Assembly: GCF_001483745.1 (NCBI RefSeq)
Contig: NZ_LQBL01000033.1
Location: 1 to 51,756 of the forward strand
Origin: Serinicoccus chungangensis
GTDB lineage: Bacteria; Actinomycetota; Actinomycetes; Actinomycetales; Dermatophilaceae
Length of the DNA stretch: 51,756 bases
Direction: 5' to 3'
Of the stretch, positions 2,581 through 50,385 are shown one piece after another. A model generated the notes under the pieces. That model had not been told where the DNA came from. It worked only from the letters and a program-made list of their open reading frames with translations, and did no database searches. Position numbers and translations under genes: made by a program. Position 1 is the stretch's first letter; each line of letters starts with the position of its first letter.

Positions 2581-4323
2581 GTGGGCATCCGTCAGCGCAC
2601 CGCCGCCGTGGTCCCGTGGCTGCGGCGCGTCGGCGTCGTGGCCCTGCTGCTCGTGGTCGCCTACACCGGTGGGGTCGCCGCCACCCAGCTGTGGCCGGTG
2701 CACACGCAGACCCGGTACTTCGCCGCGGACATCTCGATCGAGCCGGGGCTGAGCTCCACCGTCCTGCTCCCGACCGTCGTCGGCGACATGGAGGTGTCCT
2801 TCAACCGCCGGCTGCTGCCCGCGCCGGGCCTGGAGGGGCGCGTGCAGGTGCGCGAGGAGGTCACCGACCTGCTGCGCCGCGGGCAGCTGCGCACCGCCGA
2901 CCTGGAGCCGAGCCCGGAGGAGCTGCGGGCCGCCATCGACGACGGCGTCGCCGAGCTGGCGTGGAAGTTCGCCGCCGGCGCGCTGGTCACCACCGCCCTC
3001 ATCATGCTGGCGTATGCCGCCGCCCGACCCACCCACGTGGCCCGCGGCCTCGTCGCGTCAGCCGTGGCGACGGTGCTGGCGATGCTCGTGCCGGGCACGG
3101 CGGCATACCTGACCTATCGCACCGACCGGGTCGCCGAGTTCCGTACCACCAGCCTGCTGTCCCTCGTCGAGCAGAACACCGACATCCTCGCCGGGCTGGA
3201 CCGCAAGGCCGACCAGGGCGCGGTCTACGTCACCAACCTGCTGGCGCTGTCCTCGGCGATGCGCGAGGAGTTCAGCCCGGACGCGACGCAGACCCAGACC
3301 GCCGCGAGGTTCCTGCTGGTGAGCGACATCCACGGGATGAACCAGTACCCCCTCATGCGGGAGATCGTGCAGACCCAGGACATCGACGCCGTCATCGACG
3401 CGGGCGACCTGCTCAACTTCGGGCGCGAGGACGAGGGCGACCTGACCGGCATCTACGAGGGCATCGAGAGCCTGGGCGTGCCGTACATCTACGTGCGCGG
3501 CAACCACGACGGCGCCTTCGCCCGCGACGAGGGCGTCCTGGAGCGGATGGACCAGGTGCCGAACGTGCTCCTCGTGGAGCCGACCGAGGGGGAGCTGCAG
3601 CAGATCACCGTCAACGGCGTGACCGTGACCGGGTTCAACGACAGCCGGTACTTCAACCAGCGCAGCGACGACTACGGCGCCGACCAGGCCGCGCTCGCGC
3701 AGCGCTTCCGGGAGGCGACCGCCGGGCTGCCGCCGAGCGACATCGTGCTCACCCACCAGCCCTACGCCGCCGACCGGGTCACCGCGGGCGCCGTGACGAT
3801 CAACGGGCACATGCACGTCCCCGACCTCACCGGGCAGCACCTGCAGGTCGGGTCGTTCACCGGCGGCGGGCTGGTCAACCAGTTCCGGCTGCCGCCGCTC
3901 ACCGAGCAGGCGCAGGAGGCGGCGCAGGAGGACCCGGAGACCGCCGGCGAGCTCGAGGGCCACGCCTACAGCTTCGACATCCTCACCTTCGGGGAGGACT
4001 GCGCGATCAGCAGCCTCACCCGCTACAGCTACCGCAACCTCGTGTCCGGCCGTCCGCAGTTCGACGACGTCAGCCTCATCAACGGCCGGACCATCCAGCC
4101 GCAGGTGCCGCAGGACCGGTCGTGCTCGGCCGACCAGGGGGTCGAGGTGCAGGCGGTCGAGCAGCTCGTCGACGACGCCGAGGCCGACCCCACGCAGGTC
4201 GAGGTGACCCCGCCGGACGACGCCGTCGTCACCACGCTGCCGCCGCTGGAGCTGCCGGAGATCGATGACGAGACAGGCGCGGACGGCTCCTCCGACGCGG
4301 ACGGGACGACCGAGCAGCCCTGA
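2581..4323 (+). CDS. Membrane-anchored calcineurin-like metallophosphoesterase
   Basis: A 580-residue protein with one N-terminal transmembrane segment (VGVVALLLVVAYTGGVAA), a further hydrophobic pair around residues 135-180, and a metallophosphoesterase domain. Metal-binding motifs occur in family order: SDIHG (D249, H251), DAGDLLNFG, GNHD (G307-D310), THQPYA, and GHMH (G409-H412). These residues bind the dinuclear metal centre of calcineurin-like phosphatases and nucleases. The C-terminal tail is Asp/Glu/Thr-rich and probably disordered. The start is a GTG giving the hydrophobic leader directly; longer in-frame extensions overlap the divergent flavoprotein gene and are composition artefacts. 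The substrate is unknown; topology suggests the catalytic domain faces outside, which is inference. Confidence 0.88.
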   Translation: MGIRQRTAAVVPWLRRVGVVALLLVVAYTGGVAATQLWPVHTQTRYFAADISIEPGLSSTVLLPTVVGDMEVSFNRRLLPAPGLEGRVQVREEVTDLLRRGQLRTADLEPSPEELRAAIDDGVAELAWKFAAGALVTTALIMLAYAAARPTHVARGLVASAVATVLAMLVPGTAAYLTYRTDRVAEFRTTSLLSLVEQNTDILAGLDRKADQGAVYVTNLLALSSAMREEFSPDATQTQTAARFLLVSDIHGMNQYPLMREIVQTQDIDAVIDAGDLLNFGREDEGDLTGIYEGIESLGVPYIYVRGNHDGAFARDEGVLERMDQVPNVLLVEPTEGELQQITVNGVTVTGFNDSRYFNQRSDDYGADQAALAQRFREATAGLPPSDIVLTHQPYAADRVTAGAVTINGHMHVPDLTGQHLQVGSFTGGGLVNQFRLPPLTEQAQEAAQEDPETAGELEGHAYSFDILTFGEDCAISSLTRYSYRNLVSGRPQFDDVSLINGRTIQPQVPQDRSCSADQGVEVQAVEQLVDDAEADPTQVEVTPPDDAVVTTLPPLELPEIDDETGADGSSDADGTTEQP

Positions 4324-7473: not shown

Positions 7474-7530
7474 CGCGCCCGGCCGGCGGGCCGGTCGACC
7501 CGGTGCACGGATCTGCCACCCGGGCGCGAC

Positions 7531-7577
7531 CTGTGCACGCTTCTGCAGTCAGGACGTAGGGAAGACCACGTGCACAG
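7531..7577. terminator. Convergent-gap hairpin containing the 17-bp repeat
   Basis: CTGTGCACG at 7531-7539 pairs with CGTGCACAG at 7569-7577 across a 29-nt loop, between the convergent arcC and YCII genes. The left arm is part of the 17-mer found inverted at 8-24. A partial relative (GGTGCACGGATCTGCC) lies just upstream. No T-run follows, so a terminator role is inferred only from position. Confidence 0.4.
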
Positions 7578-7610
7578 GCTGCACCACCGTGCCCAGGTGC
7601 GACGGAGTGC

Positions 7611-8203: not shown

Positions 8204-8922
8204 TCACCGACCTGACCGCCCAGCCCATCCGCTTCACCGCCGACATCCCGGGGTGGCAGCGCCTCCTCGAGGCGGTGGGCGCGCGGCTCGTCCTGGAACG
8301 GCCCGGCTGGCTGGTGTATGCCGTGGGCTCGGGCCGGGTCGCCCTGCACCAGTCGAGCGACGCCCAACCGCCCGGGACGACGCTGGCCTTCTCGACGACC
8401 ACGCCGGTGCCCCGTGCGGTCGAGGCGGCAGCGGCGGCCGGCGTGCCCATCACCCTCGGCCGTCCCGACCACGGCGAGGCAGGCATGGTGTCGGCGCCCG
8501 ACGGCACGGCCTTCACCCTGGACTCACCGACCCCGGTCGAGCAGGACGGACCGCCCGCCGACGCACGTCTCCTCGTATTGCCGATCTGGTACGGGCCCGA
8601 CACCGGCATGATCCGCGGCGTCCTCGAGGGCCTGGGGGCGCGCCCCCGCCTGGTCGCCGACGACGGGACCTGGACCGACCTGACCTGCGAGGGCGGAGGG
8701 CTGGTGGCCGCGCACCGGGCGGACGACGCGGCGCTCGAGCTGGCTTTCGAGTGGGACGGGGACGTCGAGGAGGCCCTCGCCCTGCTCACGGAGGCGGGCA
8801 TCGAGGCCACCCTCATCGACGAGACCTACAGCCGGACCGTCCAGGTCGCCGACCCCGACGGCATCAAGGAGATCTGGGTCAACGAGCGGCAGACCGACCA
8901 CTACGGCTACAAGCGCCTCTGA
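8200..8922 (+). CDS. VOC (glyoxalase/bleomycin-resistance fold) protein
   Basis: A 240-residue two-domain protein of the vicinal oxygen chelate superfamily. Each half carries a beta-alpha-beta-beta-beta pattern: the first ends with [14 protein letters not shown] and the second with [16 protein letters not shown], both the typical 'DPDG' final strand carrying a candidate metal ligand (E in KEIWV). A histidine ligand is visible in VALHQSS. Members bind metal or simply sequester small molecules such as bleomycin, fosfomycin or mitomycin. The gene follows the ribbon-helix-helix gene with a 4-bp overlap, implying one operon. Substrate is unknown. The stop codon lies inside the first unit of a 22-bp repeat array. 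Confidence 0.84.
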
Positions 8923-16668: not shown

Positions 16669-16690
16669 GCCGCGCACCCCTCCTGGCCCC

Positions 16691-16746
16691 CACTTCTGGA
16701 CATAGGTTTCTGGGACCCGTTCCCCAGAAAGCTATGTCCAGAAGTG
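16691..16746. repeat. 44-bp near-palindromic dispersed repeat, copy 2 (inverted, extended arms)
   Basis: Arms of 24 nt at 16691-16714 and 16723-16746 contain the same 44-bp core as 621-664 in opposite orientation, extended by CACTTC/GAAGTG. The single mismatched arm position is the same as in copy 1. It lies between the S14 stop and the M3 peptidase start, where it could separate the transcripts. Confidence 0.8.
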
Positions 16747-16777
16747 TGCGTGGGTGGCCTGTGATCTGATGAGAGGT

Positions 16778-18847
16778 ATGACCAACCCCCTCCTCTCCCC
16801 GTCCACGCTGCCCTTCTCCCTCCCCGACTACGCGAACCTCACCGACGCCCACGTCCGGGAGGCGGTCGAGGTGGGGATGGCCGAGCAGCTCGAGGCGCTG
16901 CGGGCCCTGGCCGAGGACCCGGAGCCGGCGACGGTGGAGAACGTCCTGCACGCCTGGGAGACCTCCGGGGCGACGCTGGACCGCACGCTGTCGGCGTTCT
17001 GGGTCGCCAAGTCCGCGGACACCAACGACGAGCGGGACGCCATCATGGCTGAGTTCGCGCCGCGGCTGGCCGCGCACACCGACACGATCATGCTCGACGA
17101 GAGCCTCTACGCCCGCCTCACCCAGCTGGGCGACCGGGCCGACGCCGGCGAGGTCGACCTCGACGAGCAGGACGCCTTCGTGCTCACCGAGCGGCTGCGC
17201 GCCTACGAGCGCGGCGGGATCACCCTCGACGCGCCCGGCCAGGCCCGGTTGCGCGAGCTCAACGGGGAGCTGGCGACGCTGTCGACGGAGTTCGACCGGC
17301 TGCTGGTGACCGGGCGGGCGGCGGCCGCGGTGCACGTCACCGACGAGGCCGAGCTGGCCGGGCTGAGCCAGGACGCCCGGACCGGGCTGCGGGAGGCCGC
17401 CGAGGCCAAGGGGCTCGACGGGTGGCTCATCACCCTCACCAACACCACCGGGCAGCCCGTCCTCGACAGCCTGGAGCACCGCGGCCTGCGCGAGCGGGTC
17501 TTCCGCGCCTCGGTCGAGCGGGGGTTGGGCCGGGAGGGTCACGAGGCGCACGACACCCGCGACATCCTGGTCCGGATCGCCCGGCTGCGCGCCGAGCGCG
17601 CCACGCTGCTGGGCTACGAGCACCACGCGTCCTACGTGCACCAGGTCGGCTGCGCCCAGACCACCGACGCGGTCAACGACCTGCTGGGCCGGCTCGCCCC
17701 GGGAGCGGTGCAGATCGCCCAGCGGGAGGCCGACGCCCTGGCCGAGCAGCTGCATACCCTCGAGCCGGAGGCGACGCTCGAGGGCTGGGACTGGCAGTTC
17801 CTCGCCGCCCGCAGCGCCGGGGAGGGCTTCGACACCGGGCAGCTCACGCCCTACCTCGAGTTCGAGCGGGTGCTCACCGACGGCGTCTTCGCCGCGGCCA
17901 CGGCGCTCTACGGCATCACCTTCCACGAGCGGGAGGACCTCGTCGGCTACACCGAGGCCGCCCGGGTCTTCGAGGTGCGCGAGGCCGACGGCCGCCAGCT
18001 GGGCGCCGTCGCCATCGACCCCTACACCCGGCCGACCAAGAAGGGCGGGGCCTGGATGACGAGCATCGTCGACCAGTCGCACCTGCTCGGCGACCTGCCC
18101 GTGGTGACCAACACGTGCAACGTGCCGCCGCCCTCGGCCGGACAGCCCAGCCTCATGACCTGGACCAACGTGATCACGCTCTTCCACGAGTTCGGGCACG
18201 ACCTGCACGGGCTGCTCTCGGACGTGCGCTACCCCTCGCGCTCGGGCACGTCCGTGCCGCGCGACTTCGTCGAGTTCCCCAGCCAGGTCAACGAGATCTG
18301 GGCCTGGGAGCCGGCCCTCCTGCAGCGCTACGCCCGTCACCACGAGACCGGCGAGCCGATCCCGCAGGAGTGGGTCGACCAGCTCGTCGACAGCCGCACC
18401 GAGACCGGCTACCACACCATCGAGCTGCTCAAGGCGATGATCCTGGACCAGGCCTGGCACCAGACGCCGCTGACGCAGCTGCCCGAGGACGGCTCCGGTG
18501 TGGAGGCCTTCGAGCAGGCGGCCCTCGAGCGGGCCGGGGTCGCCTTCCCCCTCGTGCCGCCGCGCTACCGCAGCGCCTACTTCCACCACATCTTCGGCGG
18601 TGGGTACGCCGCCGGCTACTACTCCTACCTGTGGTCGGAGGTCATGGACGCCGACACCGTCCAGTGGTTCCGCGAGCAGGGCGACAGCGACCACCCCGGG
18701 GGTATGACGCGCGCCGCCGGTGACGTCTTCCGCCGGGAGCTGCTGGGCCGGGGAGGGTCCATCGAGGCGCTGGAGACCTACCGGCGCTTCCGCGGTCGCG
18801 ACCCCGAGGTGGGCCCGCTGCTGGAGCGGCTCGGGCTGACCGGCTGA
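16778..18847 (+). CDS. M3 family metallopeptidase (peptidyl-dipeptidase Dcp/oligopeptidase A type)
   Basis: A 689-residue thimet-oligopeptidase-family zinc peptidase. The zinc motif LFHEFGHDLHG (HEFGH at about residues 470-474) and the third-ligand region VEFPSQVNEIW are intact, followed by YRSAYFHHIFGGGYAAGYYSYLW, the substrate-closing tyrosine-rich loop of M3A enzymes. It degrades oligopeptides in the cytoplasm; no signal peptide is seen. The size fits Dcp or OpdA. The ATG at 16778 has GAGAGG upstream; a longer form would begin inside the 44-bp repeat and is unlikely. Confidence 0.93.
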   Translation: MTNPLLSPSTLPFSLPDYANLTDAHVREAVEVGMAEQLEALRALAEDPEPATVENVLHAWETSGATLDRTLSAFWVAKSADTNDERDAIMAEFAPRLAAHTDTIMLDESLYARLTQLGDRADAGEVDLDEQDAFVLTERLRAYERGGITLDAPGQARLRELNGELATLSTEFDRLLVTGRAAAAVHVTDEAELAGLSQDARTGLREAAEAKGLDGWLITLTNTTGQPVLDSLEHRGLRERVFRASVERGLGREGHEAHDTRDILVRIARLRAERATLLGYEHHASYVHQVGCAQTTDAVNDLLGRLAPGAVQIAQREADALAEQLHTLEPEATLEGWDWQFLAARSAGEGFDTGQLTPYLEFERVLTDGVFAAATALYGITFHEREDLVGYTEAARVFEVREADGRQLGAVAIDPYTRPTKKGGAWMTSIVDQSHLLGDLPVVTNTCNVPPPSAGQPSLMTWTNVITLFHEFGHDLHGLLSDVRYPSRSGTSVPRDFVEFPSQVNEIWAWEPALLQRYARHHETGEPIPQEWVDQLVDSRTETGYHTIELLKAMILDQAWHQTPLTQLPEDGSGVEAFEQAALERAGVAFPLVPPRYRSAYFHHIFGGGYAAGYYSYLWSEVMDADTVQWFREQGDSDHPGGMTRAAGDVFRRELLGRGGSIEALETYRRFRGRDPEVGPLLERLGLTG

Positions 18848-18863
18848 GCCACTCCCCGCCCCC

Positions 18864-18875
18864 CGTCCGGTGCGG
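18864..18875. repeat. Solo copy of the 22-bp repeat core
   Basis: CGTCCGGTGCGG sits 17 bp after the M3 peptidase stop and matches the core of the 22-bp arrays at 8919, 42294, 47301 and 47979. It is a single unit with no tandem copy. Chance is possible for 12 bases at this G+C, so confidence is limited. Confidence 0.4.
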
Positions 18876-35767: not shown

Positions 35768-35830
35768 GCAGGCCGGTTCGCGTCCCCCGCCGGGGAGGGG
35801 CGCCCCGTCACGTCACGAGCCTGCCGACCC

Positions 35831-35900
35831 CACTCATACGCAGAAGGTGTTCCTCTGCGGGAATGCATCCCGGCGGAGGAACACCTTCTGCGTGGGAGTG
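35831..35900. terminator. Long bidirectional hairpin between convergent genes
   Basis: Arms of about 32 nt flank a five-base loop (ATGCA). The central part of each arm, ACGCAGAAGGTGTTCCTC, is perfectly complementary to its partner; there are a few mismatches near both ends. It lies between the coiled-coil gene and bioY, which converge, so a bidirectional terminator is likely despite the absence of T-runs. The stem is longer than a usual terminator. Confidence 0.65.
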
Positions 35901-35908
35901 TGGTGCGC

Positions 35909-40973: not shown

Positions 40974-42293
40974 ATGCCCGCAGCCCCCACCCCCTCCAGC
41001 CCGCCCGGTGCGTCGGCGGGAGGCACGACATACCCCTCCGCGACCCTCGCAGCGCTGCCGACGGCGGCCGACATCGAGCAGGCGGCGGGGCGGATCGCGG
41101 GCCGGGTCGCGCGCACCCCCCTGGAGCGCAGCGTTCGGCTCTCGGAGCAGACCGGCGCCTCGGTGTGGCTCAAGCGGGAGGACCAGCAGCCGGTGCGGTC
41201 CTACAAGGGGCGCGGCGCCGCCAACCTCATCGCCCAGCTCGACAGCGAGCAGATCTGGGCCGGGGTCGTCTGCGCCAGCGCCGGCAACCACGCGCAGGGC
41301 GTGGCGCACGCCTGCGCCACCCTGGGTGTCAACGCCCGCATCTACCTGCCCGCCACCACCCCCCGGCAGAAGCGCGACCGGGTCGCCGACATCGGGGGCG
41401 ACTGGGTCGAGGTCGTCGTCGGCGGCCGGACCTACGACGAGGCCGCGGCGGCGGCGCTGGCCGACGCGGAGCGCACCGGCGCGACCCTCGTGCCGGCCTT
41501 CGACCACCCGCACACCATCGCCGGGCAGGGGACCATCGCCCGGGAGATCAGCGAGGACCTGCCCGGCCCGCCGGACCTCGTGGTCGTCCCGTGCGGGGGC
41601 GGCGGGCTGCTCGCGGGGTGCCTCACGTGGTTCGGCGAGCACGCGCCCGGGGTGCGGGTCGTCGCCGCGGAGCCGGCCGGCGCCGCCAGCATGATGGCCG
41701 CCACCCGCGCCGGCGAGCCGGTCGCGCTGGAGGAGATCGACCGTTTCGTCGACGGCGCCGCGGTGCAGAAGGTCGGGACGCACACCTTCGAGGTGGTGCG
41801 ACGGCACACCCCCGAGCTCGTCGCCGTGCCCGAGGGCCGCATCTGCACCGAGATGATCCGGCTCTACCAGAGCGAGGGCATCATCGCCGAGCCCGCCGGG
41901 GCGCTCGCACCGGCGGCGCTGGAGGGCCTGGGCGACCTGCGCGGCCTCACGGTCGTCGTGGTGGTGTCCGGCGGCAACAACGACCTGCTGCGCTACCCCG
42001 AGGTGATGGAGCGCTCGCTCATCCACGAGGGCCTCAAGCACTACTTCCTCGTGGACTTCCCGCAGGAGCCGGGCATGCTGCGGCAGTTCCTCGACGAGGT
42101 GCTCGGCCCGGACGACGACATCGCGCTCTTCGAGTACGTCAAGCGCAACAACCGCGAGACCGGCCCGGCCCTGGTCGGCATCGAGCTCGGGGCACGCGAG
42201 GACCTCGCGCCGCTCCTGGAACGGCTGGACGCCAGCTCGATGGAGGTCGAGCCCATCCAGCCCGACAGCCCGCTCTTCCGCTTCATCCTCTGA
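40974..42293 (+). CDS. ilvA: Threonine ammonia-lyase (biosynthetic)
   Basis: A 439-residue fold-type II PLP enzyme. The Schiff-base lysine is K78 in VRSYKGRGA; the phosphate-binding CGGGGLLAG and SAGNHAQG loops are intact. The C-terminal 90 residues hold an ACT-like regulatory domain (HYFLVDFPQEPGMLRQFLDEVLG), a single copy, as in the shorter corynebacterial enzyme. It converts threonine to 2-oxobutanoate, the first step of isoleucine synthesis. The start is an ATG at the predicted transcription start, so no ribosome site is present. The gene stop is immediately followed by a 22-bp repeat array. Confidence 0.94.
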   Translation: MPAAPTPSSPPGASAGGTTYPSATLAALPTAADIEQAAGRIAGRVARTPLERSVRLSEQTGASVWLKREDQQPVRSYKGRGAANLIAQLDSEQIWAGVVCASAGNHAQGVAHACATLGVNARIYLPATTPRQKRDRVADIGGDWVEVVVGGRTYDEAAAAALADAERTGATLVPAFDHPHTIAGQGTIAREISEDLPGPPDLVVVPCGGGGLLAGCLTWFGEHAPGVRVVAAEPAGAASMMAATRAGEPVALEEIDRFVDGAAVQKVGTHTFEVVRRHTPELVAVPEGRICTEMIRLYQSEGIIAEPAGALAPAALEGLGDLRGLTVVVVVSGGNNDLLRYPEVMERSLIHEGLKHYFLVDFPQEPGMLRQFLDEVLGPDDDIALFEYVKRNNRETGPALVGIELGAREDLAPLLERLDASSMEVEPIQPDSPLFRFIL

Positions 42294-42381
42294 GCACCGG
42301 ACGCGTGGCCGGGCCGCACCGGACGCGTGGCCGGGCCGCACCGGACGCGTGGCCGGGCCGCACCGGACGCGTGGCCGGGCG
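42294..42381. repeat. 22-bp tandem repeat array, exactly four units between two stop codons
   Basis: Units at 42294-42315, 42316-42337, 42338-42359 and 42360-42381 are identical except for the last base. Each begins GCACCGGACGCGTGG. The array fills precisely the 88 bp between the ilvA stop (42291-42293) and the stop of the convergent siderophore-interacting gene (42382-42384). The near-identity of units suggests recent expansion. Confidence 0.92.
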
Positions 42382-43212
42382 TCAGTGGCTGGTGCCGGCC
42401 TTCCAGTAGCCGCAGAAGCTGATCTGCTTCTTCGGTATGCCGTGGCGCACCCAGTGGCGGCGCGCGGCGGTGGCGAGGTCGGACTCGCCCGCGACCCAGG
42501 CATACACCGGGCCCTCGGGCACCGGCACCTCCTGCAGGGCCGCGAGGACGGACGCCCCGGGGGTCGCCCCCGCCGGACGCACCACCCAGCGGACCTCGAT
42601 GCCCTCCGGCGCCGGGAGCGCCTGCCGGTCGTCGGGGTGCGGCACCTCGACGACCGCCGTGCCGCGGGCCTGGCTCGGGGCGTGCCGCAGGATGCCGGCG
42701 AGCGCCGGCAGCGCCGACTCGTCGGCGGCCAGCAGCAGGGGCGCCTCCTCGAGCGGGTGGTAGATCGCCCCCTCGTCGATGATGGCCACCTCGTCCCCCA
42801 CCTCGCAGCGCTGCGCCCAGAGTGAGGCGGGGCCGGCGTCACCGTGCTCCTCGCTGCCGTGGACGACGAAGTCGACGTCGAGCTCGGGCCCGTCCACCCC
42901 GTGCTCGCGGTAGGCGCGGACCGTGTAGTTCCGGATGACCGGACGCTGGGCGGCCGGGACGAGCATGAACTTCGCGTAGGCCGCCGTGGTCAGCTGGTCC
43001 GGGACGTGCCGCAGCGAGTCCGCGCCGCCGGTGGGCAGGAAGAGCCGGAACCACTGGTCGTCACCGATGACCTCGAAGTCGGTCAGGTCGGCGCCCCCGA
43101 GGGTGGTCCGGGCGAAGGTGGGGGTGGGGCGGTGGGCGCCGCGCACCCGGAGGCGCAGGGCGCGCGCGACCCGGGGCTTGCGCCGGGTGGCCTGCAGGTT
43201 GCTCTTGGCCAT
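42382..43212 (-). CDS. Siderophore-interacting protein (ferric-siderophore reductase)
   Basis: A 276-residue FAD-dependent reductase of the SIP/ViuB family. The flavin motif RNYTVR (94-99) and the preceding FARTTLGGADLTDFEVIGDDQWFRLFLP barrel strand are typical; the NAD(P)H domain includes LLLAADESALPALAGIL, and the C-terminus ends GYWKAG as expected. It releases iron by reducing ferric siderophores in the cytoplasm. It is divergent from the siderophore binding protein and shares with it a DtxR/IdeR box. ATG at 43212, with GGAGAC upstream. Confidence 0.92.
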   Translation of the reverse strand: MAKSNLQATRRKPRVARALRLRVRGAHRPTPTFARTTLGGADLTDFEVIGDDQWFRLFLPTGGADSLRHVPDQLTTAAYAKFMLVPAAQRPVIRNYTVRAYREHGVDGPELDVDFVVHGSEEHGDAGPASLWAQRCEVGDEVAIIDEGAIYHPLEEAPLLLAADESALPALAGILRHAPSQARGTAVVEVPHPDDRQALPAPEGIEVRWVVRPAGATPGASVLAALQEVPVPEGPVYAWVAGESDLATAARRHWVRHGIPKKQISFCGYWKAGTSH

Positions 43213-45437: not shown

Positions 45438-46483
45438 GCACGACCTCCACGGCCCCTCCCGCTCTCTCCCCGCTGCGTGCCGGGCGTCGGCGCCGTGCCG
45501 CGAGCCGTCGACGCGCCGCCGCCCTCCTCGGGGTGCTGGTGCTCGCGCTCTTCGCGCTGAGCCTCATGGTGGGCCAGACGTTCTACGGCCCCGGCGAGGT
45601 GTGGCGGGTCGTCCTCGGGCAGGACGTGCCCGGCGCCTCCTTCACCGTCGGGACGCTCCGGCTGCCGCGCGCCGTCCTCGGGCTGGTCGCCGGCGCCGCC
45701 CTCGGGATCGCGGGCGTGACCTTCCAGACCATGCTGCGCAACCCCCTCGCCTCCCCCGACATCATCGGCATCAGCGCCGGGGCCAGCGCCGCCGCCGTGG
45801 TCGGCATCGTGGTGCTGCGGGTGGACGAGGCGCTGGTGTCCGGGATGGCGATCGTGGCAGCGCTGGTGACGGCGCTGGTCATCTACCTGCTCGCCTACCG
45901 CGACGGCGTCCTCGGCACACGGCTCATCCTCATCGGCATCGGCATCGCGGCGATGCTGGACTCCGTCGTGGCCTACGTCATCGTGCGCGCCGCCGCGTGG
46001 GACCTGCAGGTGGCCATGCGCTGGCTGACCGGGAGCCTCAACGGCGCCACGTGGGGCATCGTGCTGCCGCTCGTCGTGGCGGCGGCGGTGCTCATGCCGG
46101 CGCTGCTCGCCCAGTCCCGGCAGCTGGAGCTCCTCCAGCACGGGGACGACACCGCCAGCGCCCTCGGCGTGCGGGTGGAGCGCACCCGGCTGACCGTCAT
46201 CGTGGCCGCGGTGGCGCTCATCGCCTTCGCGACCGCCGCGGCGGGCCCCATCGCCTTCGTCGCCTTCCTCGCCGGGCCGATCGCGGCTCGCGTCGTCGGA
46301 CCGGGGGGCTCGCTCATGATCCCCGCGGCGCTCACCGGCGCCCTGCTCGTGCTGGCGGCCGACCTCGCCGGGCAGCACCTCTTCGGCACCCGCTACCCGG
46401 TGGGCGTCATCACCGGGGTCCTCGGGGCGCCCTACCTCGTCTACCTGCTCATCCGCACCAACCGCGCCGGAGGCTCGTTGTGA
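45434..46483 (+). CDS. Iron-siderophore ABC transporter permease 2 (FecCD family)
   Basis: A 349-residue FecCD permease. It shows the same landmarks as permease 1: LRLPRAVLGLVAGAALGIAGVTFQTMLRNPLASPDIIGISAGAS and AVALIAFATAAAGPIAFVAFLAGPIAARVVG. A strongly basic N-terminus (RAGRRRRAASRRRAAALLG) precedes helix 1. GTG start overlapping permease 1 and stop overlapping the ATPase start, both by four bases. The pair probably forms the membrane channel. Confidence 0.93.
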   Translation: MSTTSTAPPALSPLRAGRRRRAASRRRAAALLGVLVLALFALSLMVGQTFYGPGEVWRVVLGQDVPGASFTVGTLRLPRAVLGLVAGAALGIAGVTFQTMLRNPLASPDIIGISAGASAAAVVGIVVLRVDEALVSGMAIVAALVTALVIYLLAYRDGVLGTRLILIGIGIAAMLDSVVAYVIVRAAAWDLQVAMRWLTGSLNGATWGIVLPLVVAAAVLMPALLAQSRQLELLQHGDDTASALGVRVERTRLTVIVAAVALIAFATAAAGPIAFVAFLAGPIAARVVGPGGSLMIPAALTGALLVLAADLAGQHLFGTRYPVGVITGVLGAPYLVYLLIRTNRAGGSL

Positions 46484-47298
46484 CCGACTCGCACACCCTC
46501 GTCGCCGAGCGCGTCAGCCTCGGCTACGGCGACCGCACCGTCGTCGACGGTCTCGACCTCACGGTGCCCCCGGGCCGCATCACGGCCGTCGTCGGCGCCA
46601 ACGCCTGCGGCAAGTCCACGCTGCTGCGCGCGCTCTCCCGGCTGCTGGCGCCCTCGCAGGGCCAGGTGGTCCTCGACGGCAAGGCCGTGCACACCCAGCC
46701 CACCAAGGCCGTGGCGCGCACCATGGGTCTGCTGCCGCAGAGCCCCCTCGCCCCGGAGGGGATCGCCGTGGCCGACCTGGTGGCCCGTGGACGCAGCCCG
46801 CACCAGCGGATGCTGTCCCGGTGGGCCGTCGCCGACGAGCAGGCGGTCCAGGAGGCGCTGGAGCTGACCGGGACGAGCGACCTGGTGGACCGGGCGGTCG
46901 ACGAGCTCTCCGGCGGTCAGCGCCAGCGCGTGTGGATCGCCATGGCCCTCGCGCAGCAGACCGACATCCTCCTGCTGGACGAGCCCACGACCTACCTCGA
47001 CATCTGTCACCAGATCGAGGTGCTCGACCTGCTCACCGACCTCAACCGCACCCGCGGCACGACCATCGTCATGGTGCTGCACGACCTCAACCTCGCCGCG
47101 CGCTACGCCGACCACCTCGTCGCGATGTGCGGAGGCCGGCTGCTGGCCGGAGGGCGGCCCGAGGACGTGCTCACCGCCGCGACCGTCGAGAAGGTCTTCG
47201 GGCTGCGCAGCCAGGTCGTGGCCGACCCCGTCTCCGGCAAGCCGATGGTCCTGCCCATCGGCCGTCACCACGCCCTCCAGCCCGTCACGCACGCCTGA
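46480..47298 (+). CDS. Iron-siderophore ABC transporter ATP-binding protein (FepC type)
   Basis: A 272-residue ATPase. Walker A GANACGKST (39-47), signature LSGGQRQR (143-150), Walker B ILLLDEPT (163-170) and H-loop VLHDLN are all intact. It powers import by the upstream permeases. GTG start overlapping permease 2. The stop codon is followed within two bases by a 22-bp tandem repeat array, which marks the end of the iron operon and may terminate it. Confidence 0.94.
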   Translation: MTDSHTLVAERVSLGYGDRTVVDGLDLTVPPGRITAVVGANACGKSTLLRALSRLLAPSQGQVVLDGKAVHTQPTKAVARTMGLLPQSPLAPEGIAVADLVARGRSPHQRMLSRWAVADEQAVQEALELTGTSDLVDRAVDELSGGQRQRVWIAMALAQQTDILLLDEPTTYLDICHQIEVLDLLTDLNRTRGTTIVMVLHDLNLAARYADHLVAMCGGRLLAGGRPEDVLTAATVEKVFGLRSQVVADPVSGKPMVLPIGRHHALQPVTHA

Positions 47299-47300
47299 GC

Positions 47301-47500
47301 CGCACCGGACGCGCGGTCAGGACGCACCGGACGTGTGGTCGGGACACACCAGACGTGTGGTCGGGACACACCAGACGTGTGGACGGGACACACCGGACGC
47401 GCGGTCAGGACGCACCGGACGCGCGTTCAGGACACACCAGACGTGTGGTCGGGACACACCAGACGTGTGGTCGGGACACACCGGACGCGCGTCCGGTGCG
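47301..47500. repeat. 22-bp tandem repeat array, nine units, two subtypes with covarying stem
   Basis: Eight 22-bp units plus a ninth (47477-47500). Two subtypes alternate: one with GCGCGGTCAGGACGC and one with GTGTGGTCGGGACAC. The change of C to T in the left arm is matched by G to A in the right, preserving a small stem in seven of eight junctions. The last unit contains a perfect 20-bp palindrome, CACCGGACGCGCGTCCGGTG (47479-47498). The remainder of the gap, to 47554, is unremarkable. Confidence 0.9.
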
Positions 47501-47554
47501 GCGCGGACGAGGTGACGGCAGGAGCAGCGGCGTCGTGACTGCCACGATGGGGGT

Positions 47555-47968
47555 ATGCCGCGCGTCCAGATCCCTCCGACCCGGACCCGGTACTGGCTCA
47601 TGGTCGGCCTGTGGTCCCTGATGCTCGCGACTACTGCTCTCCGCCTGGTCGACGGAGTCCGGGACGGTGCTGCCTGGTTGGTCGTCGACCTCGTGCTCTC
47701 CCTGGGCACGGCCGCGCTGCTCGTCCTGACCCTGACCGGCGCCCTGACTGTCACCGCCGACGCAGACGGGCTGCACGGCCACTGGTTCTACGGCCGTCGC
47801 CTGGTCCCGTGGGGCGAGGTCACCGAGATCCGGCCGGCTCCCAGCTACCCGGAGCGCCTGGTCATCCGCGGCGAGACCCGCAGGACCCTGGTCGAGGGGA
47901 TGAAGCCGGCCGATGACGAGGTGGCCCTGCTGCATACCTGGCACGAGAGGGCGATCAGTGGCCCCTGA
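47555..47968 (+). CDS. Small membrane protein with PH-like domain
   Basis: A 137-residue protein. Two hydrophobic helices (YWLMVGLWSLMLATTAL and WLVVDLVLSLGTAALLVLTL) precede a bacterial PH-like (bPH_6) module: GALTVTADADGLHGHWFYGRRLVPWGEVTEIR and PERLVIRGE. The layout is common in actinobacteria; function is unknown. ATG at 47555 follows GGGGGT, an unremarkable site. The gene is bracketed by two 22-bp arrays, one before its start and one after its stop, an odd arrangement for a short codirectional gene. Confidence 0.74.
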   Translation: MPRVQIPPTRTRYWLMVGLWSLMLATTALRLVDGVRDGAAWLVVDLVLSLGTAALLVLTLTGALTVTADADGLHGHWFYGRRLVPWGEVTEIRPAPSYPERLVIRGETRRTLVEGMKPADDEVALLHTWHERAISGP

Positions 47969-47978
47969 CCGTCCTCAG

Positions 47979-48105
47979 CGCGCGTCCGGTGCGTCCTGAC
48001 CGCGCGTCCGGTGCGGCCTGACCGCGCGTCCGGTGTGTCCTAACCGCGCGTCCGGTGCGTCCTGACCGCGCGTCCGGTGCGGGCTCACCGCGCGTCCGGT
48101 GCGCC
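47979..48105. repeat. 22-bp tandem repeat array extending into the MMPL coding end
   Basis: Five full units (47979-48088) and a partial sixth (48089-48105), each with CGCGCGTCCGGTGCG, the complement of the family core. Unit 5 contains the stop codon of the leftward MMPL gene (48085-48087); unit 6 is coding and supplies its last residues GAPDAR. The array runs through a convergent 3' junction with the PH-like gene. Confidence 0.92.
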
Positions 48106-50385
48106 GGCGGGGGCCAGCTCGGCCCCGCCCGCATCCCCGGCCGCCGGGTCGTCCTCCACCTCGTCGGGGCGGTGGCGGCCGGCGTGGTCCACCCGTCGCG
48201 GCCACCAGAAGCGCTCGCCGAGCACCCGGACGATCGCCGGGACGAGCACCGTCCGCACCAGCAGGGTGTCGAGCAGCACACCGATGCAGATCACCACACC
48301 GATCTGGGCCAGCACCACCAGCGGCAGCACGCCGAGGACCGCGAACACCGCCGCCAGCAGGATGCCGGCCGAGGTGATGACGCCACCGGTGGCGCTCAGC
48401 GCCCGCAGCACGCCGTCGCGCGTCCCGTGCACGCCGGCCTCCTCCAGCGTCCGGGTGATGAGGAAGATGTTGTAGTCGACCCCCAGCGCGACGAGGAAGA
48501 GGAAGGCCAGCAGCGGCATGCTGGCGTCGATCGCCCCGAAGCCGAAGACGCCGGTGAACAGCCACCACGAGACCCCAATCGCCGCGCAGAAGGTCGCGAC
48601 CACGGAGGCCACGAGGATGACCGGGGCCAGGACCGAGCGCAGCAGACCCATGAGCGCCAGCAGCACCAGCGCGAGGATGAGCGGCATGACGACGAAGCGG
48701 TCGCGCACGTTGCCGTCGGACTCGTCCAGCGCCGAGGCGTCGCCCCCCGTGACGTGGGTGTCGGCATAGCCGTCCACGGCGGCACGCACCTCCCCGACGG
48801 CCTCCTGGGCGGCCTCGCTCCCGGGCTCCGCCTCCAGCACGACCTGCACCTGACCGATGCCGTCGACCGGCTCGACCGGCGTCACCTGGGTGACCCCGTC
48901 GACGTCCTCCACCGCGGCCGCGAGCTCCTCCACCTGCGCCTCGTCGCCGCGGGTGACCACCACCAGCGGGTCGGAGGTCCCGGCCGGGAAGGACTCGCCC
49001 AGCCGCTCGGCCGCGGTGATCGCCTCGGGCGTCTCGAGGAACTGGTCCTCCGGGGCCAGCCCGCTGCTGATCTGGGTGATGCCGAACGCCAGGGCTGCGA
49101 GCAGGGTGAGGGTCCCGGCGATGTAGGCCGCGGGGGCCTTCGCCACGGCGTCACCGATGCGGCGCCACAGCGAGCGCGACTCCGCGAGCACGGCCTGCCC
49201 CTCGCGCGGCACCTGGGGCCAGAAGACCCAGCGCCCGAAGACGACGAGCGCACCCGGGAGGACGAGCAGCACGAAGGCCATCGCCACCAGGACGCCGACC
49301 GCGCAGGCCAGCCCCAGACCGCGGGTCGAGGGGAAGACCGACAGCAGCAGGCACAGCACGCCGACGACGACCGTGCTGGCGCTCGCGATGATCGCCTCGG
49401 CCGCGCGGCGCAGCGCCAGCGCCATGGCCTCGTGCCGGGAGGAGTGGGTGCGCAGCTCGTCGCGGTAGCGGCTGATGAGCAGCAGCGCGTAGTTGGTGCC
49501 GGCACCGAAGACCAGGACCGACAGGATGCCGATGGTCGACTCGTCCCAGGGGATGCCGAAGAGCTTGAGCACGTGCGTCGCCGCGCTGGCGGCGGTCTGG
49601 TCCGCAACGCCGACGACGAGCAGCGGGATGACCCACAGGATCGGGCTGCGGTAGGTCACGATGAGCAGGAGCGCCACGACGGCAGCGGTGGTCCCGAGCA
49701 GCGTGATGTTGGCGCCGTCGAAGACGGAGGCCAGGTCGGCCTCGATCGCGGCCGGGCCGGTGACCTGCGCCGTCACACCGTCGGGTATGCCGTCGGCCAG
49801 GTCGGTGCGCAGCTGCGTCACCACCTGCTGGGTGTCGGTCGCGGTCGGCGCGTCCAGGTCGATGACGCTGATCGCCGCCGTGCCGTCCTCGGCGGGGATG
49901 ACCGGGTAGTCACCGCTCAGCCCTGGCGGGGGTCCACCACCCTCCTGGCCGGCCCCCTCGGGAGCACCCGCCCCCTCGCGAGCGCCACCCCCCTCGGCCC
50001 CCTCGGGAGTACCGGACCCCTCGGGAGCGCCACCCCCCTCGGCCCCCTCGGGAGCACCGGCCCCCTCACCCGACCCCTGGGTGGCCGGCGGCTCGGCGCC
50101 CTCGGGGGCGACGTCCTCCATGAGCTGGGCGAGCTGGGGCAGCGACGCCTCGATGTCGGAGTCGGCGGTGAAGAGCACGATCGCCGTCTTGCTGCCCTCG
50201 TCGGGCAGCTCGTCCAGCAGCGCCTGACCCTGGGTGCTGTCGAAGCCGGCCGGCAGGGTGTCCAGGGCGGACGCGCTGCGCTCGGCCTGGCCGACCCCGG
50301 CGATGAGGCCGACGCCGAGCAGCAGCCCGACCAGCGCGATGATCCAGGACCGAGGTGCGGTGAGCGTGGTCACGAGGCGAGACAT
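48085..50385 (-). CDS. MMPL-family (RND) transporter
   Basis: A 766-residue MMPL transporter with two sets of six helices. Landmarks: APRSWIIALVGLLLGVGLIAG in helix 1, SPILWVIPLLVVG, the proton-relay FGAGTNYALLLISRYRDEL with Asp/Tyr, and the second-half MPLLAFLFLVALGVDYNIFLITR with GVDYN. MMPL proteins export lipids, glycolipids or drugs. Within the first extracytoplasmic loop (about residues 105-155) is an in-frame Gly/Ala/Pro/Glu repeat. ATG at 50385 with GGAGGA upstream. The 3' end encodes GAPDAR from a 22-bp repeat unit. Divergent from a MarR gene. Confidence 0.92.
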   Translation of the reverse strand: MSRLVTTLTAPRSWIIALVGLLLGVGLIAGVGQAERSASALDTLPAGFDSTQGQALLDELPDEGSKTAIVLFTADSDIEASLPQLAQLMEDVAPEGAEPPATQGSGEGAGAPEGAEGGGAPEGSGTPEGAEGGGAREGAGAPEGAGQEGGGPPPGLSGDYPVIPAEDGTAAISVIDLDAPTATDTQQVVTQLRTDLADGIPDGVTAQVTGPAAIEADLASVFDGANITLLGTTAAVVALLLIVTYRSPILWVIPLLVVGVADQTAASAATHVLKLFGIPWDESTIGILSVLVFGAGTNYALLLISRYRDELRTHSSRHEAMALALRRAAEAIIASASTVVVGVLCLLLSVFPSTRGLGLACAVGVLVAMAFVLLVLPGALVVFGRWVFWPQVPREGQAVLAESRSLWRRIGDAVAKAPAAYIAGTLTLLAALAFGITQISSGLAPEDQFLETPEAITAAERLGESFPAGTSDPLVVVTRGDEAQVEELAAAVEDVDGVTQVTPVEPVDGIGQVQVVLEAEPGSEAAQEAVGEVRAAVDGYADTHVTGGDASALDESDGNVRDRFVVMPLILALVLLALMGLLRSVLAPVILVASVVATFCAAIGVSWWLFTGVFGFGAIDASMPLLAFLFLVALGVDYNIFLITRTLEEAGVHGTRDGVLRALSATGGVITSAGILLAAVFAVLGVLPLVVLAQIGVVICIGVLLDTLLVRTVLVPAIVRVLGERFWWPRRVDHAGRHRPDEVEDDPAAGDAGGAELAPAGAPDAR
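49921..50085 (-). repeat. In-frame minisatellite in the MMPL extracytoplasmic loop
   Basis: Imperfect 30-36 nt units encode repeats of the type GAPEGAEGG / GTPEGAEGG. The DNA shows CCCTCGGGAGCACC and CCCCCTCGG repeatedly. The array is in frame and lies in the loop between the first transmembrane helix and the porter domain. Length variation between strains would be expected. Confidence 0.8.

Follow-up and report, generated by a model that had tools for sequence, protein, structure and literature searches.

Among the short repeats dispersed over bacterial gene ends, the best known are palindromic elements of the REP type, which have a dedicated transposase. In one study, REP sequences are reported to be extragenic and to lie mainly between convergent and co-directional genes (PMC3733652). 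Another reports some REP elements within 15 nt of stop codons, and an effect on translation of E. coli REP elements 1-20 nt past the stop (PMC12306157). Hairpin-cluster terminators are reported as elements grouped closely behind stop codons (PMC8355165). The TAACTGA direct repeats of the Beggiatoaceae have a 7-bp unit and are reported as lineage-restricted, intergenic and present in many copies (PMC4679880). Titles and abstracts of the open-licence literature on repeats in Serinicoccus, Ornithinimicrobium or Actinobacteria, or at stop codons, contain no description of the 22-bp family reported here; for open-licence papers only, this is weak evidence of its absence from the literature.

The 22-bp arrays are a dispersed family of direct repeats which turns over fast, clusters at gene 3' ends and keeps a nearly fixed pitch. 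The window (the whole stretch of DNA analysed, 51,756 nt of a Serinicoccus chungangensis contig) contains four arrays of 22-bp units, with 9, 6, 4 and 3 units. The arrays, a lone core and the neighbouring genes are as follows:

47303-47500, plus strand: nine head-to-tail 22-bp units, about CACCGGACGYGYGGTCRGGACR; the first unit starts 4 nt past the stop of the ABC ATPase gene
47479-47498: 20-bp palindrome CACCGGACGCGCGTCCGGTG, inside the ninth unit of the array at 47303-47500
47970-48101, minus strand: six-unit array facing the one at 47303-47500; the TGA stop (48085-48087) of a minus-strand gene is within its first unit
42295-42382, plus strand: four near-identical units, occupying the gap that separates two convergent stop codons
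8915-8980, minus strand: three-unit array between convergent genes; its far end is overlapped by the TGA (8920-8922) of the plus-strand gene
18862-18872, minus strand: lone core-like match with one mismatch, antisense, beyond the stop codon at 18847
46480-47298, plus strand: ABC transporter ATPase gene (Pfam ABC_tran), upstream of the nine-unit array
47555-47968, plus strand: short gene between the two facing arrays
48085-50385, minus strand: large gene; the first unit of the array at 47970-48101 codes for its C-terminal tail, APDAR
40974-42293, plus strand: threonine-dehydratase-like gene (PALP, Thr_dehydrat_C), upstream of the array at 42295-42382

The nine head-to-tail units and the palindrome in the ninth had been predicted from the sequence, and both are located; related arrays expected near 8919, 42294 and 47979 are also present. 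A solo core had been placed near 18864. A match exists there, but with one mismatch and in minus-strand orientation, which is antisense to the gene ending at 18847; genome G167 has a similar sequence at the equivalent site. With up to one mismatch allowed, the window has 25 core matches; 100 shuffles average 9.55, and none of them reaches 25. The short gene between the facing arrays has no Pfam match. The product of the large minus-strand gene presumably resembles an MMPL-type membrane protein.

Other repeats are also present in the window. A 45-bp tandem repeat with sub-periods of 18 and 27 bp is found at 49950-50067, inside the called gene 48085-50385. A 16/32-bp tandem repeat, TCAGCGGGCCAGCACC, lies between two minus-strand genes at 679-813; there is a related repeat at the G167 junction and little in G168. 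The convergent gap at 7474-7610 has ACCTGTGCACGG-type motifs, with 30-bp repeat expansions in G167 and G168 which are absent from G150. Large dispersed gene-end hairpins (TTCTGGACATAGG... and ACGCAGAAGGTGTTCCTCTGC...) are found at 584-805, 16669-16777 and 35768-35908, with likenesses in G167, G168 or G119; these may be terminators of the more ordinary sort. Near gene ends at other loci there are hairpin-bearing arrays of 52 and 65 bp and a 32-bp tandem family, GACGCCCGGT...CAACCAT (L170, L167, L163, L150, L172 and L166). Gene ends in the Serinicoccus clade are rich in many repeat families, and this holds for several members of the genus.

The 22-bp family is abundant in the window's genome (G000; 33 contigs, 3.56 Mb in all). 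The exact CACCGGACGCG core is found there 88 + 124 = 212 times, which is more than 100 copies per genome; the reversed pattern is found 8 + 9 = 17 times. Neighbouring units at the 22-bp pitch (ACMGGACRYG twice) number 150, and the reversed control gives 0. Amongst named genomes, two exact cores 22 bp apart occur in 59 stretches. Serinicoccus accounts for 55 of these, in S. sediminis GP-T3-3 and a pair of uncultured isolates; the remaining four are single matches in Bifidobacterium, Streptomyces, Yinghuangia and Kitasatospora. These four are excluded from the array counts, which use the 55 named loci and the window; the array sets below (n = 70, 73 and 42) overlap, as they have orthologous loci in common. 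A complete relative, G150 (3.46 Mb), has at least 42 arrays, so few of its gene ends are occupied. A family-wide origin was considered and rejected: in genus g11 (G059) the extra CACCGGACGCG copies are inside called genes in all 30 places opened, of 82, and the core surplus of G133 is not in 22-bp arrays (0 pitch-22 matches). The rejection covers these two surpluses; further genera, such as G028, also have one.

The repeat unit differs between lineages of the genus. From their sequences there appear to be at least four versions, or dialects, in this one genus, and more may exist; the search patterns were written from units already seen. The ACMGGACRYG pattern at pitch 22 is found in nine of 31 genus genomes (G000 150, G080 143, G150 105, G168 81, G154 46, G169 36, G161 10, G167 5 and G158 1 matches) and the ACCGRCCGCRCGGTYTG pattern in three (G047 68, G127 51 and G158 3). 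Only G158 has both (1 and 3 matches), 20 of the 31 have neither, and the reversed controls are all 0. The 22-bp units of G127 and G047 (CCGACCGGCCGCACGGTTTGCG and a near relative) align in register, by eye, with CACCGGACGCGCGGTCAGGACG at about two thirds of positions. G161 and G169 have the unit GACAGGACACG and a second type, ACCGGCGACACGGTTTG, at 22-23 bp; ten stretches of G154 have GACCGGACGCGAGTTCCTGACG or a near variant as their unit. At the ATPase junction (46480-47298 and its array), there are same-dialect arrays in G150, G168 and G080 and other-dialect arrays in G127 and G047. Stop-adjacent genes were compared between G150 (54, among the matches listed), G127 (34) and G169 (29). Array-bearing ends in common number four for G150 and G127, three (in one neighbourhood) for G150 and G169, and none for G127 and G169; four common ends between 54 and 34 are at most mildly above chance (P 0.003-0.11, depending on the assumed total). 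As few array-bearing ends are common to dialects, the dialects look more like separate expansions than like in-place conversion.

Arrays are gained, lost and copied. At the 42294 junction there are four units in G000, three in G168, about two degenerate units in G167, and none in G150 and G080, where the two stops are 34 bp and 24 bp apart respectively. The ATPase junction has 4-9 units in G000, G150, G168 and G080. Copy number thus varies at fixed intergenic sites, from 0 to 4 in one case and from 4 to 9 in the other; since orthologous junctions can lose their arrays entirely, single arrays are dispensable. At the 8923 junction, 22-bp arrays are found in G000, G150 and G168, and a 32-bp repeat in G167. 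One copying event is resolved: in a divergent gap of G150, a two-unit array agrees with a five-unit array at a distance of 1 kb. The agreement, with one mismatch, runs on for 24 bp past the array, and these 24 bp reach the stop codon and last codons of the neighbouring gene. G000, G167 and G168 have no array at the copy site; G167 has GACGCG at its left edge.

For the mapping to stop codons, genes were called with a simple codon-score finder written for the analysis, not taken from annotation. There are 70 de-duplicated arrays (the window and the 55 named loci). Of these, 54 begin between -17 and +51 nt from a same-strand stop: 36 start 1-51 nt past the stop, and 18 start exactly 17 nt before the stop's end. 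Nine of the other 16 are farther from a sense stop; for seven the stretch contains none. In 18 of the 70 arrays the first unit includes the stop codon (16 TAG and 2 TGA, at unit positions 15-17); in one example, CACCGGACGCGCGGTAGG reads (G)CA CCG GAC GCG CGG TAG. A stop at -17 is found in 10 of the 42 G150 arrays among the matches listed. These 42 arrays include 22 in convergent gaps, 17 in co-directional gaps (10 sense, 7 antisense), three in divergent gaps and none inside a called gene; by the same gene calls, 39 of them are in a gap bounded by at least one gene 3' end. The reference intergenic space, from the window, 60 kb each of G167, G150 and G168 and 40 kb of G080, has 4707 bp convergent, 8467 bp co-directional and 7332 bp divergent. 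Against this reference, convergent gaps are enriched and divergent gaps depleted amongst the G150 matches listed (chi-square P 3e-6 by base pairs; 1e-4 by junction counts). The preference is weaker in G127 (34 arrays: 9 convergent, 17 co-directional, 7 divergent, 1 inside a called gene) and in G169 (28 arrays: 10, 13, 2 and 3 respectively). The gene to the left of the array is sense to it in 32 of the 42 G150 arrays (matches listed), and in 56 versus 13 cases in the window and named loci.

The original prediction was of a genome-dispersed family concentrated at gene 3' ends. The genome and its relatives were searched with the 22-bp period and the arrays mapped to stops, and the prediction holds; placement relative to genes is non-random, both by the 54 of 70 arrays near sense stops and by G150 gap type (P 3e-6). 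That arrays lie always just after stop codons is nearly true of the window, but the array at 47970-48101 holds the stop inside its first unit, and some arrays of relatives are in divergent gaps. Along the chromosome, 25 of 34 loci in G150, 15 of 25 in G127 and 13 of 19 in G169 are in the origin-proximal (dnaA-proximal) half; the pooled count is 53 versus 25 (P 0.002, gene density uncontrolled). The bias is clear in G150 and unclear in both G127 (KS P 0.68) and G169 (KS P 0.16). The G150 loci in this comparison come from the first 100 of 105 places, and those of G127 and G169 from one dialect pattern each.

Genes flanking divergent arrays were read by eye at seven loci as candidates for a trans-acting factor; they look ordinary, many of them like housekeeping genes, and the candidates were rejected. 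One of the three divergent G150 arrays (L211, ~2969-3060) is upstream of a DUF3263 gene. No second locus with a DUF3263 gene and an array is found among the loci examined.

Where the stop codon is within the first unit, the gene ends with an array-coded tail. Tails were compared across species for one protein, the product of 48085-50385: it ends ...APDAR in G000, G150, G168 and G080 and ...TPDAR in G167, and orthologues in G127, G158, G119, G047, G169 and G161 are without an APDAR-type tail. At the ATPase junction, the genes of G000, G150, G168 and G080 stop ahead of the array; in G167 the frame continues into a unit, where a TAA stop occupies the equivalent place. Units of two other dialects start with GA, and a preceding T completes the stop codon. 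The stop distance is -2 in 5 of 19 G127 arrays and 6 of 19 G169 arrays that have a sense gene on the left. The arrays show how proteins can receive C-terminal residues, and their genes stop codons, from noncoding repeats.

The pitch is nearly rigid. In 73 arrays, with steps of 21 and 23 allowed, 253 of 254 unit steps are exactly 22 bp and one is 44; the spacing is constant and close to an integral number of turns of the helix. All 148 steps in the G150 arrays among the matches listed are 22 bp, and neighbouring units in these same arrays differ by 525 substitutions, 91 in the core and 434 in the spacer. In G127, 2 of 99 steps are 21 or 23 bp; so are 4 of 89 steps in G169, which also carries 23-bp arrays. 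Array-free intergenic alignments of G000 with four relatives have 484 substitutions and 106 indels (alignments below 60% identity dropped). Off-period steps are found in 2 of 304 for period-22 arrays and 5 of 68 for other tandem arrays (P 0.003); this control leaves out steps below 65% identity and places 23-bp arrays from the same superfamily among the others. With lenient tandem-finder settings, period-22 arrays have an indel-to-mismatch ratio of 0.31 and the others one of 0.53, both judged to be inflated by compensating gap pairs. Tandem arrays generally hold register, and the 22-bp family holds it better. As other tandem arrays are also fairly well in register, part of the rigidity may stem from the way tandem arrays evolve. 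Conservation differs between the halves of the unit. In 14 arrays from tandem-finder output on the window and syntenic stretches (extents set by hand), differences per site between units are 0.052 at positions 1-11 and 0.159 at positions 12-22, a contrast that is partly biased because most arrays were retrieved through the core.

The arrays were predicted to have a conserved secondary structure with a covarying stem. In the window array, the 10-22 pair (T10-A22 or C10-G22) is indeed kept, by eye, at seven of eight junctions; the exception is unit 6, which has C10 with A22. This covariation is confined to the two inherited block types of the window array, and it vanishes over 73 arrays. When one neighbouring unit pair is drawn per array, positions 10 and 22 pair at a frequency of 0.66 observed and 0.65 expected, so that the stem pairs as often as base composition dictates, and no stem stands out among the 73 arrays (largest pairing excess 0.055). 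The strongest mutual information in this set is at lag 22, between the same position in successive units, which indicates block inheritance; the caveat that inheritance of whole units could produce the covariation matches these data. On average, folding energies are close to those of column-permuted arrays. Against permutation of the 22 columns (n = 63), the mean z is 0.02 sense and 0.29 antisense; by genome, the sense and antisense values are 0.12 and 0.23 in G150 (n = 39, matches listed), 0.03 and 0.04 in G169 (n = 28), and -0.38 and -1.11 in G127 (n = 29). The window array has a z of -4.35 versus dinucleotide shuffles, with a predicted fold that pairs the palindromic last unit with the first; versus permuted arrays z is -1.59, and 13 of 200 permutations are at least as low. 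An inverted core up to 100 nt beyond the array is found for 11 of the 42 G150 arrays among the matches listed, six of which are three facing pairs. There are no U-tract terminators or terminator-like sites at 46800-48400, and no Rfam families in the window. No conserved RNA structure is detected in the arrays.

Four explanations of the arrays can be weighed. The first proposal for this DNA was a non-U-tract terminator made of covarying RNA hairpins. The location behind stops, the enrichment in convergent gaps, the dinucleotide-shuffle score of the window array (-4.35) and the dialect of G127 (dialect II), which folds slightly better than permuted arrays, mainly in antisense (-0.38 sense, -1.11 antisense, n = 29), are all consistent with this. 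However, controls that keep the periodicity reduce the window score to -1.59 (13/200) and give a mean of 0.02 for 63 arrays, covariation is absent, an inverted core is near just 11 of 42 G150 arrays (matches listed), and the window has neither a terminator-like site (46800-48400) nor an Rfam match; a hairpin terminator is very improbable. The different repeat versions in related species suggest a fast-changing DNA signal or spreading DNA, not RNA hairpins. An RNA signal could also act unfolded: repeated in the 3' UTR, the core might be recognised by a termination factor or an RNA-binding protein, or might influence ribosomes that finish at the stop. The left gene is sense to most arrays (32 of 42 among the G150 matches listed; 56 versus 13), and many arrays start 1-20 nt past the stop, the range for which the REP study reports translation effects (PMC12306157). 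It is not obvious, though, why RNA would call for a nearly rigid step of 22 bp, and seven of the 17 co-directional G150 arrays (matches listed) are antisense. An unfolded RNA signal is unlikely.

Two readings at the DNA level are more likely. The one we tentatively prefer, judging from sequence, is that the arrays act as a helically phased protein-binding array at transcription-unit ends. A phased role is proposed because the 22-bp step rarely slips: there would be one 11-bp core every two helical turns, presented on a single face of the DNA to a putative sequence-specific DNA-binding protein, which would affect transcription at unit ends through a roadblock, topological or nucleoid role. The arrays may be described as a '3'-junction satellite', a dispersed tandem element of transcription-unit ends with ~2-11 direct units in the genus that includes Serinicoccus. 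New arrays would come from copying over short distances, through template switching at small homologies, and would then expand in tandem; they would persist at gene ends as a phased row of putative binding sites; dialects would mirror changed specificity of the putative protein. It is doubtful, though conceivable, that the repeat and such a protein co-evolve into lineage dialects while arrays spread between gene ends by template switching and add stops and short tails to unrelated proteins. Two options of the original prediction bear on the phased-binding reading: the near-rigid pitch and the better conserved 11-bp half-unit give some support to a binding array for a protein, and a putative insulator for convergent genes would fit the 22 of 42 G150 arrays (matches listed) in convergent gaps. 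Several observations weigh against phased binding: arrays are at few gene ends, orthologous junctions can be without them, some steps and arrays depart from 22 bp, some arrays are divergent or antisense, and dialects have few junctions in common. Nearly as likely as phased binding is a neutral or selfish junction satellite, which would arise anywhere by slippage and template switching and survive mainly at 3' ends, insertions at other places being harmful. Stop fusion would then be copying that starts at a stop codon, and dialects would be lineage-specific bursts. Presence/absence and copy-number turnover at orthologous junctions agree with neutrality, as do the G150 two-unit copy of a five-unit array 1 kb off at a site that is array-free in G000, G167 and G168, the junction with differing families (22-bp in G000, G150 and G168; 32-bp in G167), the many other tandem families at gene ends, the few junctions shared by dialects and the arrays outside 3' gaps. 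Neutrality does not readily account for a pitch held better than in ordinary intergenic DNA and other tandem arrays, or for one half-unit that varies three times less within arrays. The ATPase junction retains one dialect in four species and any dialect in six, and array starts cluster by stops more sharply than tolerance alone predicts. The 22-bp family is a natural test of functional gene-end signals versus tolerated satellites.

REP/BIME elements are the nearest known kind. Like the 22-bp arrays, they are reported to be short, extragenic and high-copy, to lie mainly in convergent and co-directional gaps, and to have some copies near stops (PMC3733652, PMC12306157). Species-specific variants are another common feature. 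Array units, unlike REP/BIME, are non-palindromic, head-to-tail and at a nearly fixed 22-bp pitch. The RAYT transposase (Y1, PF01797) has 0 matches in G000, using a search that was positive in 5 of 14 known genomes as a control. REP/BIME-RAYT membership is rejected because the units are not palindromic (mean fold z 0.02, n = 63; the window array has a palindrome only in its ninth unit) and no RAYT is found in the window's genome. MIRU/VNTR loci of mycobacteria are likewise intergenic and tandem, with variable copy number, in an actinobacterium; by description, the arrays differ in that their units are 22 bp, one family covers dozens of junctions per genome, and stops lie in first units. Iteron and operator arrays, too, consist of direct repeats that span some two turns of the helix, one half of the unit being better conserved and the other freer to vary. 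The 22-bp arrays, unlike these, are at gene ends and not at origins or promoters, occur in dozens of copies, and would have a putative binding protein. Hairpin-cluster terminators (PMC8355165) are like the arrays in location, but the arrays are without excess folding or covariation. The Beggiatoaceae TAACTGA repeats are reported to be lineage-restricted and multi-copy like the arrays (PMC4679880); unit length, sequence and taxon differ. With no REP-type transposase in the window's genome, the arrays are a non-palindromic gene-end family with a nearly fixed 22-bp step, which differs between lineages and is fused to stop codons.
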